Shown piece by piece: positions 42,520 to 46,798 of a stretch of 64,000 bases of DNA (its first letter is position 1; every line of letters begins with the position of its first letter). Below the pieces are notes generated by a model. The model saw nothing but the letters and a program-made list of their open reading frames with translations, was not told the origin of the DNA and made no database searches. Source of the DNA: Gemmatimonadota bacterium (GTDB lineage Bacteria > JAAXHH01); assembly GCA_009837395.1 (NCBI GenBank), contig VXTP01000043.1:310001-374000 (forward strand). The letters run 5' to 3'. A program made the translations under genes and the position numbers.

Positions 42520-43044
42520 CTACATCAACAGTTCAACAGCTTTGTCCACCGCCTGGCTGACCCGGTCGGCGAGTCCGCTGTCATCGAGCCGGCCGATGGG
42601 ATGATCGATTTCGACGATCGGATAGCCACCGCGTCCGAGTTGCTCCGCCAGTACCCGGGCGGTGTGCGTGAAGTTGGTCGTACACAGCAATACGGACGGT
42701 AGTTCGAGATTCTCCAGGATGAGGGCATCGTGCATGCTGCACGCGCTGCAGGAGCCTCAGTCGCCGACGCCAACGAGGGCGAAATGGCAGCGCCGCGCGA
42801 TGAGACCGGTCATCTCGTCGGACAGCACGCGGCTGGCGCTTTCCTTGGTGAATTCGAGCGATTCCACGGGATGGTCCAGGCGTTTGCTCAATTGCTCGAA
42901 TACGCCGCGCAGGATGACATCGGAATTGGGCTTTCCGTTGCTCACCAGTGCGGCTACGATGTGTCCGGGACCGAGCGGACGACGGGCCGGCCGAAGGACC
43001 GCTTCGGCAGCGGAGGCCGTGGGATCGACGAGGGATATGGCCAT
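42520..43044 (-). CDS. UGSC-family selenoprotein with in-frame TGA (Sec) codon
   Basis: One 174-residue gene read through an in-frame TGA at 42759-42757 (Sec96). The part before the TGA (95 residues) ends in FALVGVGD; the part after continues GSCSACSMHDALILENLELP, giving the motif U-G-S-C at residues 96-99 that names the UGSC family. Both halves are in one frame and both look like coding sequence, with no shift needed. A hairpin begins 13 nt after the TGA, as in bacterial SECIS elements. Cysteines 99 and 102 flank the Sec, which suggests a redox or nucleophilic centre. Start ATG 43044 has GGAG upstream. Standard callers would report two fragments. Biochemical function is not established to my knowledge. 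Downstream of an unknown partner gene by 80 bp. Confidence 0.85.
42722..42759 (-). promoter_or_regulatory. Candidate bacterial SECIS element including the Sec TGA
   Basis: The TGA is at 42759-42757 (minus strand). After 13 nt comes CGTGCA-GCA-TGCACG (42743-42729), a 6-bp perfect stem whose apical loop is about 20 nt from the TGA. An outer GGC next to the TGA can pair with GCC at 42724-42722. Position matches the E. coli fdhF SECIS hairpin, whose loop lies about 18 nt past its TGA. Confidence 0.6.
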
Positions 43045-43124: not shown

Positions 43125-44132
43125 TTACGATTGGGAAACCAGGCACGTCACCGGCCGCGATCCGACTCCCCTGCCCGCGCCCAGCCAGGAGGGGATGATG
43201 GCGGAGTGTCCGCCCGCCGAACCTCCCGCGAAGACGATCCAAATGCCGCCCCGGTCCGGCGTCAGCGTAATGCGTTCGTCGGGTTCCAGGTCGTCGTGCC
43301 GGCCCGTTGCGTGGATTTCGCGCCCCGTGGCCGCGGTACGTTCGAACAGCGCGTCCCGGATCGTATCGCGCGTCCACCCGGCCCTGGTGAAAACCGACCG
43401 GTGTTCCGGGCAGATGACGAAAACGATGGCGGCGCCGGCGTAGTTGGTCGTGCGGGCGACGCGCGCGAACGAGTCGATCAGGCCGTCAGGTTCGTCGTTC
43501 ACGTGGTCGGCCACGGAATGGGGGGCTTCAGCGGCAAATACTGTTACGGCGCTGCGGTCCCCGGGAACACCCAATTCTTCGCCCTGGGTCGGCCAGCCTG
43601 CGCAACGCGCTTCGGGCAGGCAGTACGCGATGCGCCCGGCATGGGCTACCGTCGCTCGGTCCAGGTCTCCGGGCACGCTGCCGACTCCGTTTCGGATCAC
43701 CAGGTTCAGGGCCCTGCCCAGCGTCAGATTGGACCGGTTGCCCGCGCCGAGTACCGCCGTTTCCGCATTGAAACCCAGCGTTGCCACGACAGGGCCGTGC
43801 ACGATGACCAGCGGCGCGGCGCCCCCCGTGCTGGCCGAGGGGCCGACGATGTTGAATGCCGGGTCCAGGACGGCTTCCACCGCGGCCAGGACCAGGGGGA
43901 AAAGCGCGTCTGTACAACCGGCCATCACCGCGTTGGCCGCGGCCAGTTCCGCGGTGACGGTTCGCTTTCGTTCGGGCACCCGCCCGATTTCCCGGCCGGG
44001 CTCGACTCCGTGCGCGGCCAGCATCCGGTCGATGCGATCGCGGGTGGGCGGCACGACGGGCAGGCCATCGGACCAGCCCCGGTCATAGGCGTACCCGATG
44101 GCATCGATTTCTGACTCGACCTGGTGGGCCAT
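43125..44132 (-). CDS. Unknown protein encoded with the UGSC selenoprotein
   Basis: A 335-residue protein without signal peptide. It opens with GWSDGLPVVPPT at residues 19-30, a conserved-looking segment, then AANAVMAGCTDALFPLVLAA, VGPSASTGGAAPLVIVHGP and GFNAETAVLGAGNRSNLTLGRAL, a glycine-rich core. Later parts include CLPEARCAGWPT with two cysteines, and IWIVFAGGSAGGHSAIIPSWLG at the C-terminus. I do not recognise a characterised family, but its position 8 bp after the cytochrome gene and 80 bp before the selenoprotein argues for a functional unit. Because both the selenoprotein and this protein are small and soluble, a two-subunit enzyme is conceivable (inference). Confidence 0.8.
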   Translation of the reverse strand: MAHQVESEIDAIGYAYDRGWSDGLPVVPPTRDRIDRMLAAHGVEPGREIGRVPERKRTVTAELAAANAVMAGCTDALFPLVLAAVEAVLDPAFNIVGPSASTGGAAPLVIVHGPVVATLGFNAETAVLGAGNRSNLTLGRALNLVIRNGVGSVPGDLDRATVAHAGRIAYCLPEARCAGWPTQGEELGVPGDRSAVTVFAAEAPHSVADHVNDEPDGLIDSFARVARTTNYAGAAIVFVICPEHRSVFTRAGWTRDTIRDALFERTAATGREIHATGRHDDLEPDERITLTPDRGGIWIVFAGGSAGGHSAIIPSWLGAGRGVGSRPVTCLVSQS

Positions 44133-44140
44133 CGCAACCG

Positions 44141-44533
44141 TTACTTGCCGTAGTAGTTTTCGAGATAGGTCAGGATGGTATCTTCGGTCTTGCTGTCAAA
44201 TGTCTTCAGGCCCTTCTCCTCCTGCATCCACCGGATGGCGTCCAGCCACTCCTCGCGGTTCGCCCGGTACGAGCGGATGATCTGGGTCGGATGGCACTGC
44301 GCGCATTCCTTTTCCACGACAGGGTAGCCGTCGCCCATGATCAGCCGGGTCCGGTGATTCAGTTCCAGTCCGGTCCGGGGATCGAACATGGCTACGGGCT
44401 TGGCCGCCTCTGCCCGGGCATTGGCCAGTGCGACCTTTGCTCGTTCCGCTTCGTAGTAGATTACGCCGATCACGAGGGCATCGAGGACGATCACGAAAGC
44501 AATCTGGCCCAGGACGCGCATAAACCTATTCAT
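44141..44533 (-). CDS. Membrane-anchored monohaem cytochrome c-like protein
   Basis: A 130-residue protein. Residues about 8-27 form an N-terminal membrane anchor, followed by a charged stretch, and a single haem c site CAQCH at residues 77-81 (KECAQCHPTQI). Met66 upstream, or a later Met in WMQEEKGL, could serve as the distal ligand. The segment REEWLDAIRWMQEEKGL and the end TYLENYYGK resemble small cytochrome domains linked to quinoproteins. It lies between the TonB receptor and the UGSC partner gene (8 bp), so it is likely the electron carrier for a periplasmic enzyme of this cluster; the quinoprotein at 47484-49490 is the best candidate donor (inference). Confidence 0.87.
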   Translation of the reverse strand: MNRFMRVLGQIAFVIVLDALVIGVIYYEAERAKVALANARAEAAKPVAMFDPRTGLELNHRTRLIMGDGYPVVEKECAQCHPTQIIRSYRANREEWLDAIRWMQEEKGLKTFDSKTEDTILTYLENYYGK

Positions 44534-44584: not shown

Positions 44585-46798
44585 TCATCTCGAACCCGCA
44601 CCGATGGGAAGGCCGAATCCCACGTACCACGTCCGGCCGGAGGCCGGCTCGAAGAAACGGTCCCCGAAGGCGTTGGGGACGATGGAACCATTGTAACGCG
44701 TATCGAACAGGTTGTTGACTCCGGCGAACAGGACGCCGTCGACCATTGCGCCCTGGTAGGTAATACCCGCGCGCAAGTCAACGAGGCCGTAACCGTCGTT
44801 GACGAAGTCGGATTCGGGTTTTCCGCTCCCCGGAGCGGGCCCGTTGAAGTCGTTGGCAAAGTACTCCGCCGTCCACTGCGCGTTCAACTCCAGGAACGCG
44901 CCGTTGCCCGGATGGGTGTAGGTGAATCCGGCGAACAGGTGGTGGGGCGGCACGCCGGGTACTTCGTTGTCCGACAGCTGGAAGCGCGAGGTGCTTCCAT
45001 CGACCTCCCGCTCGACTTCGAAGTCGTCGAACCTGAACTGCATGCCGGTGTAGGCCATCGACAGGTTGACCGGGGGCAGGGGAGACCAGGTAAGCTTCAG
45101 TTCGATGCCCCGGTTCCGCGTTTTGCCCGCGTTGCGGAAAAAGACCTCGTCCGTCTCCGGATTGTCGATCTGGAAGGGCAGGAGCATATTGCGTATGCCG
45201 AAGGTGAAGAGGGCCGCGTCATAGGCTAATCCGGCATCGGGCAGGAATCCCTTTACGCCTGCCTCGAAGCCCCGGATTCGTTCAGGCTCGAGATCGGGGT
45301 TGAAACCGCCGGCCTGCGTGGGCTGGTTGCTCAATTCCGTGGTGGTAGGCGTCTGGAAGGCGGTGGAGAAATTGCCGTACACCGCCGTGAGCGGGGCAGG
45401 ACGGAAGGCCACGCCCAGGTGGGGACTGAACTGCGCCATGTTCCGAGTTCCCGAATCGTCGGTCTGGTCATTCAGGAACCGATCCGTCGCTTCGTACCGG
45501 AACCGGTCGTACCGCCCGCCGGCGGTGACGGAGACATCGGAAACGGGTGACCATTCCAGCTCTACGAAGGGGCCGAGGCCGTCGACGCCTTCCTTCTGAT
45601 CCAGCCGTCTGTCGCCGCGCGAGATTTCGTCGAAGACGCGGGCGTCGTCCAGCGTGCCCGCGAGGTCTCCCGGAATGCCGCCATTGCCGTATTCGCGCCG
45701 TTCGTCGCGCTGTATCTCCAGGTCTAATCCGACCGTCATCCGGTATCCGCCGTTTCCGATCCTGCCCTCGCGGCTGAACACCCCCCGGATGCCCCCGGCC
45801 ATGCGGTCCAGGTCGATGATCCGGCCCGGAATGGGGTTGAACAGCGTGCGTCCCATGCCGAAGACCGTGATCTCACCCTCGGATCCAGGCGTCTGGTAAC
45901 GAAGGGACAGGCCGCCCTGGAACTGTCTGACTTTCTTGGACGCGCCCTGCCGCTGGACGAAGGCCCTCGCGCTGGCGGGGTCCGACTCGGCCGTGGCCTT
46001 GTCGAGAGAGCTCGGGTTGTACTGGTAGGGGGCGTTATAGTAATTGGCGACGGCTGTCACGGTCCAGGTATCATCGATCATCCGTTTACCGACCGCATTG
46101 ATGCCGGTCGACCGCGCGAAGGCATGGTCACGGAACCCATCGAACCAGAGCGAATTGAAATTGACGAGAAACCGGTTGCCGCCCGCGGTGCCGGCCGCCT
46201 TGCCCTGCATGCGCCGCAGGCCATGGGAACCGATGATGAAACGGGGGGTGACTTCGAACGGCCGGTCAGGGGCCTCTTCGGTGCGGATCTGGATGACGCC
46301 GCCCGCCGCGTTGCCGTAAAGCGACGAACTGGGACCCCGCAGTACTTCGATCTGCCCCGCCGAGGTGAGATCGAGGTTGTTGAGCTGGGACTGTCCGTCG
46401 GCCATGGTCAGCGGAATGCCGTCCAGCACCAGCTTCACGCCGCGCACGCCGAAGGACGCCCGGCTGCCCAGGCCGCGGATACTGATCCGGTCGCCCTGGG
46501 AAACATTGTTCCGGTTGTTTACGATGATGCCCGGGAGTCCACGTACGCTTTCCTCCAGGGACAGCCCGGGTTCGGCGCGCTGGATCTCGTCCCGGTCCAC
46601 CCGGTCCACGGCATAGGGTATGTCGAGGATTTCCCGGATATAGCGGGTAGCGGTTACTTCAATGGGTTGAAGGACGTGGTCAACGGCAACGTCGGTGGTG
46701 TCCGGAGTGGACTGCGGCCAGGCATGGGCGGGGAACGGATGCAGCAACAGCAACAGATGCAGAATCAGGACGCCGCAGGCTGGGAGAATCGTTTTCAT
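44585..46798 (-). CDS. TonB-dependent outer-membrane receptor
   Basis: A 737-residue outer-membrane barrel with a signal peptide (MKTILPACGVLILHLLLLL, cleavage after AHA). The plug domain is clear: VTATRYIREILDIPYAVD, the SLEESVRGLPGIIVNNRN segment, ISIRGLGSRASFGVRGVKLV, and EVLRGPSSSLYGNAAGGVIQI. Barrel segments follow, including NFSTAFQTPTTTELSNQPTQ and the closing NNLFDTRYNGSIVPN and RTWYVGFGLPIG. Iron-siderophore or nutrient uptake powered by TonB is the general role; the ligand is not readable. It sits between DUF1080 and cytochrome genes, pointing to import of an organic substrate processed in the periplasm (inference). Confidence 0.94.
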   Translation of the reverse strand: MKTILPACGVLILHLLLLLHPFPAHAWPQSTPDTTDVAVDHVLQPIEVTATRYIREILDIPYAVDRVDRDEIQRAEPGLSLEESVRGLPGIIVNNRNNVSQGDRISIRGLGSRASFGVRGVKLVLDGIPLTMADGQSQLNNLDLTSAGQIEVLRGPSSSLYGNAAGGVIQIRTEEAPDRPFEVTPRFIIGSHGLRRMQGKAAGTAGGNRFLVNFNSLWFDGFRDHAFARSTGINAVGKRMIDDTWTVTAVANYYNAPYQYNPSSLDKATAESDPASARAFVQRQGASKKVRQFQGGLSLRYQTPGSEGEITVFGMGRTLFNPIPGRIIDLDRMAGGIRGVFSREGRIGNGGYRMTVGLDLEIQRDERREYGNGGIPGDLAGTLDDARVFDEISRGDRRLDQKEGVDGLGPFVELEWSPVSDVSVTAGGRYDRFRYEATDRFLNDQTDDSGTRNMAQFSPHLGVAFRPAPLTAVYGNFSTAFQTPTTTELSNQPTQAGGFNPDLEPERIRGFEAGVKGFLPDAGLAYDAALFTFGIRNMLLPFQIDNPETDEVFFRNAGKTRNRGIELKLTWSPLPPVNLSMAYTGMQFRFDDFEVEREVDGSTSRFQLSDNEVPGVPPHHLFAGFTYTHPGNGAFLELNAQWTAEYFANDFNGPAPGSGKPESDFVNDGYGLVDLRAGITYQGAMVDGVLFAGVNNLFDTRYNGSIVPNAFGDRFFEPASGRTWYVGFGLPIGAGSR

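Follow-up and report, generated by a model that had tools for sequence, protein, structure and literature searches.

A UGSC-family selenoprotein gene split by an in-frame TGA, and a candidate two-part reductase in its genomic context

The locus at positions 42520-43044 is a real, intact gene, which the original prediction had rightly assigned to the UGSC family, known but as yet uncharacterised. Its internal TGA very probably codes for selenocysteine. Judged from sequence comparison, the gene product is almost certainly a selenoprotein. UGSC proteins are already known as selenoproteins; what is new is the context, namely a partner gene, here called P335, and thioredoxin reductase neighbours. 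These genomic partners suggest, rather than prove, that the protein is half of a two-part, thioredoxin-fed reductase.

Base-by-base checking established that the gene occupies a single frame. We analysed a window of 64,000 nucleotides from a Gemmatimonadota contig, in which the frame runs on the minus strand from an ATG at 43044 through the TGA at 42759-42757 to a TAG ending at 42520. After the TGA it reads GSCSACS and then Met at 42735. The 174 residues need no frameshift, which confirms that the two leftward fragments noted earlier share one frame and are split only by the TGA. A gene caller had been expected to yield two truncated proteins, and table-11 calling of the window gives exactly two fragments, 43044-42757 and 42735-42520. 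The same happened in a public record, Paracoccus ferrooxidans CP038202 (L152), where the TGA divides the UGSC gene into two entries for small hypothetical proteins; table-11 calling thus hides or splits such genes. The split Paracoccus gene is followed by P335 and, about 3 kb further downstream, by selB.

Table 1. Features of the locus, in window positions.
Feature	Coordinates	Strand	Basis
UGSC-family selenoprotein gene, 174 aa, read through one TGA	42520..43044	(-)	Frame check, profile match, homologues
Proposed selenocysteine codon, TGA codon 96	42757..42759	(-)	TGA in 13/13 phylum matches and other phyla; Cys elsewhere
SECIS-like hairpin: stem 42743-42738 with 42734-42729, loop GCA 42737-42735	42729..42743	(-)	Pairing and covariation
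P335, 335-aa partner, proposed second subunit	43125..44132	(-)	Neighbourhoods; fused to UGSC-type domains in L082, L083 and Vibrio L153
130-aa protein, hydrophobic N-terminal segment, CxxCH (c-type haem) motif	44141..44533	(-)	Adjoins P335-UGSC also in gammaproteobacterial L013
TonB-dependent outer-membrane receptor	44585..46798	(-)	Same order in L013

Profile searches place the joined product in the predicted family from end to end. Residues 5-173 of the read-through protein match PF24696, the Pfam UGSC family (E=6.7e-40), at 137.4 bits where the cut-off is 25, and because the match spans these residues, conservation extends through and past the TGA. With Cys written for Sec, the protein scores 120.3 bits against the NCBIfam equivalog NF041046, narrowly under the strict cut-off of 125. 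The [UC]GSC redox site is present as the Sec codon followed by GSC, and its C/U, G, S and C are invariant in a 19-sequence alignment. Within D-[UC]-G-S-C, the TGA occupies the conserved U/C position.

Homologues carry the same codon at the same site. Exactly one in-frame TGA occurs in 13/13 matches from the window's own phylum, and TGA stands at the same place in 10/10 relatives from named genomes (32-87% identity), which are Latescibacterota- or Gemmatimonadetes-labelled, Gammaproteobacteria and Acidobacteriota MAGs. When about 400 genomes per group were sampled, the family turned up in 6 Pseudomonadota and 40 Acidobacteriota genomes, mostly with TGA. Residue 96 had been expected to be U or C in most homologues. 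Profile mapping across all loci bore this out: among 76 distinct relatives, counted with frames broken by TAA or TAG left aside, 54 have TGA at the site and 12 have TGC/TGT (Cys), and the remaining 10, divergent paralogues, have other residues. Some fused relatives carry Met, Ser or Thr there, so not every member can be a selenol or thiol enzyme.

The hairpin noted earlier, 13 nt past the TGA, is present at 42743-42729, and it is conserved and covaries in relatives. It consists of 6 bp (CGTGCA/GCA/TGCACG), and its spacing and GCA loop agree with the bacterial SECIS pattern of a hairpin just downstream of the UGA with a G in the apical loop. Of 24 distinct Sec sequences, 22 pair along the whole stem, and 97.9% of stem cells pair, against 4-65% when the pairing was slid by 1-3 columns as a control. 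Three of the 24 show a compensatory CG to GC change: in rows where the third motif Cys (TGC) becomes Trp (TGG), the partner base turns from G to C, in L087 through a synonymous GTG to GTC substitution. None of 500 shuffles, a control that does not keep relatedness, matched the stem covariation score. Five of the six tabulated Cys-type relatives break at least one pair; in the sixth, L084, pairing is intact but the loop G is replaced by C. The hairpin of USSC-type paralogues differs, and by eye it can be given a GGTC loop. An Rfam search of the hairpin region returned no SECIS family match. The case for a SECIS rests on conservation and covariation, because single-sequence folding of the window's hairpin region is ordinary (z=0.04).

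The genome encodes a complete selenocysteine machinery. All four components sought, SelA (431 aa), SelB, tRNA-Sec (selC) and SelD, are present, in keeping with the original prediction. The tRNA-Sec has a TCA anticodon and adjoins the SelB gene; SelD is of the Cys type and fused to an NADH-dehydrogenase-like domain, named by eye from sequence. Elsewhere in the same genome (C12:57711-60635; L002, L027), a distant SelA homologue of 535 aa lies close to a SelD/HypE-like protein of 340 aa, in a stretch that also holds a TIGR04282-like glycosyltransferase recognised by eye.

P335 is the gene directly upstream of the UGSC gene, a neighbour on which the original prediction had not remarked. The two adjoin in Latescibacterota-type, gammaproteobacterial, Acidobacteriota, Actinomycetota and haloarchaeal loci, and stand side by side in the window's genus and also in Arthrobacter, Halorientalis, Halalkalicoccus and Natrinema plasmids. 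In the reverse direction, a UGSC-type domain is present at 26 of the 30 loci that P335 retrieved from five Acidobacteriota genomes. P335 is absent from the retrieved DNA of 13 UGSC loci in the Acidobacteriota sample, and two of these, rechecked with about 7 kb on either side, are still without it. Co-occurrence is given per fetch direction, as a pooled count mixes both directions and duplicates; the accompanying tally of pairs in the same open frame is too high, since it also reads through ordinary TGA stops. Both parts are encoded as a single chain in L082 and L083, and as single annotated genes of 561 aa on a Vibrio europaeus plasmid (L153) and 574 aa on a Sporomusa termitida plasmid (L154). 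These two plasmid fusions have MGTS at the UGSC site and aconitase X and DUF126 genes in the vicinity, and they seem to have lost the selenol or thiol. From this pattern of adjacency and fusion, UGSC and P335 are in all likelihood a functional pair.

Some Acidobacteriota genomes carry many P335-type copies: 30 matches in G530, 28 in G691, 19 in G539, 17 in G675 and 11 in G454. Many of them also have a UGSC-type domain together with an in-frame TGA. Such an expansion of selenoprotein paralogues is unusual.

Further upstream, the order TonB receptor, CxxCH protein, P335, UGSC is kept in the window's genus and in one gammaproteobacterial contig (L013). Neither Pfam nor NCBIfam gave a match for P335, or for the 130-aa CxxCH protein at E 0.001. 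The link of the CxxCH protein to the enzyme is uncertain, and the TonB-dependent receptor could possibly import the enzyme's substrate.

Thioredoxin reductase genes recur near the pair in several unrelated lineages. The order is trxB-trxA-P335-UGSC in Arthrobacter and P335-UGSC-trxB in Roseovarius, and trxB lies near the pair in Variovorax. Thioredoxin reductase-like genes also occur near it in L052/L131, L059/L142, L134 and Haloterrigena L156, all of these being plain occurrences. The window has no trx gene beside the pair, and most other loci likewise have none nearby. Around the trx-linked pairs are genes for TRAP or TTT transport, CoA transferase, CoA-ester lyase, isocitrate lyase/PEP mutase and the like. 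Because transport, CoA transferase and lyase-type genes surround the pair, its context suggests that small organic acids are catabolised. No one pathway dominated when Pfam domains were counted in the neighbourhoods of 20 loci; redoxins, enoyl-CoA hydratases and molybdopterin dehydrogenases each turned up at a few of them.

Structure prediction gives UGSC a Rossmann-like fold. In the AF2 model (pLDDT 85.8, pTM 0.81) strands and helices alternate, and Sec96 lies at the N-terminal end of the helix that follows strand three. None of its matches in the PDB is strong; they comprise flavodoxin-like and other Rossmannoid proteins, and no thioredoxin fold appears among the top 50 matches of this predicted structure. 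This alternating α/β, flavodoxin-like model argues against the thioredoxin fold guessed for UGSC in the GOS paper (PMC2398784). P335 was modelled poorly (pLDDT 69) and its predicted model had no fold match; weak matches to class I fumarase (TM 0.24) were disregarded, the model being too uncertain. PDB sequence searches with the UGSC and P335 profiles gave chance matches only.

The P335 partner and the repeated thioredoxin reductase neighbours allow a testable enzyme hypothesis to replace "some redox protein". SelB with Sec-tRNA would insert selenocysteine at codon 96, and UGSC would pair with P335 in a two-component reductase, providing its redox subunit. Sec96 might then attack a small organic substrate that P335 binds or activates, with Cys99 resolving the intermediate as a selenenylsulfide. 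Thioredoxin and thioredoxin reductase would restore the redox site, and P335 together with the local catabolic genes could set the choice of substrate. On balance, genomic context leads us to lean modestly towards UGSC-P335 being a thioredoxin-driven two-component selenoenzyme reductase in small-acid catabolism.

Three other readings compete with parts of this account, and one of them, that the TGA is a true stop in a pseudogene or a sequencing or assembly error, is extremely improbable. Translation by table 11 is all that speaks for it, whereas the frame is open on both sides, the SECIS-like hairpin is conserved and covarying, and relatives in other phyla share the TGA. Sequencing error, which could have undone the original prediction, is very unlikely because the same TGA recurs in all 13 phylum matches. 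UGSC might instead be a stand-alone thioredoxin-like oxidoreductase or peroxidase that merely shares an operon with P335, given that UxxC is a common redox motif and that the GOS paper (PMC2398784) considered a Trx-like fold likely. We regard this as unlikely: the confident AF2 model lacks that fold, P335 is found alongside UGSC in one phylum after another, and some genomes encode the two as a fusion.

If UGSC-P335 is a reductase, a different donor could also supply its electrons. In this lineage one example would be the CxxCH (c-type cytochrome-like) neighbour, whose conserved place in the order from TonB receptor to UGSC favours such a link. However, with its N-terminal hydrophobic segment that protein would sit outside the cytoplasm, no obvious signal peptide was seen by eye on UGSC or P335, and it is thioredoxin reductase, not a cytochrome, that recurs in other lineages. 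We hold this source of electrons to be somewhat less plausible still than a stand-alone UGSC enzyme, and keep thioredoxin as the preferred donor.

UGSC was among the most abundant selenoprotein families of the GOS marine survey (PMC2398784), and a 2026 review describes UGSC-type proteins as largely uncharacterised (PMC13188914). In the open-licence literature we found UGSC only in selenoproteome surveys and reviews, with no reaction. The passages concerned in PMC2398784 and PMC13188914 name neither a reaction nor a partner gene that is constant; the only association they mention is fusion to an unknown domain. The protein described here shares with the family (PF24696; NF041046; PMC2398784; PMC13188914) the full-length profile match, the U/C-G-S-C motif and the SECIS-like hairpin; most members have Sec and some have Cys. 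It differs in falling just below the NF041046 equivalog cut-off. The fusion selenoprotein UGSC/Unknown_1, as outlined in the GOS data (PMC2398784), joins a UGSC domain to an uncharacterised conserved domain; the single chains of L082 and L083 have that kind of layout, a likeness of layout only.

A further parallel is with GrdB and PrdB (PF07355) of glycine and D-proline reductase. They share with UGSC a UxxC (UxxCxxC here) at a strand end, followed by a helix and LExxGIxT. GrdB and PrdB likewise act with partner proteins, in a layout that UGSC with P335 resembles, and glycine reductase is reduced by thioredoxin according to the review's account (PMC13188914). Unforced hhalign comparison of the UGSC and GrdB/PrdB profiles set UxxC on UxxC with a score of 30.8 and a probability of only 32%; none of 400 column shuffles reached that score (maximum 28.7). 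In contrast, the UGSC protein is half the size and not a PF07355 member, with no match to that family by hmmscan at E 10, and the profile similarity is only suggestive. A single GrdB-like sequence used for comparison gave no match to UGSC, and the window's own genome has no PF07355 match. Evolutionary kinship is a lead, not a result, and to us a rather doubtful one on this profile evidence. Elsewhere (L090; G015:C178), a GrdB/PrdB-like gene is interrupted by TGA at the UxxC position and is probably another selenoprotein missed by standard calling. Taken together, we tentatively entertain, at somewhat under even chances, that UGSC-P335 pairs are widespread two-subunit thioredoxin-dependent selenoenzyme reductases, multiplied in some Acidobacteriota to 11-30 P335-type copies per genome, each perhaps for a different small organic acid, and distant cousins of glycine and D-proline reductase.
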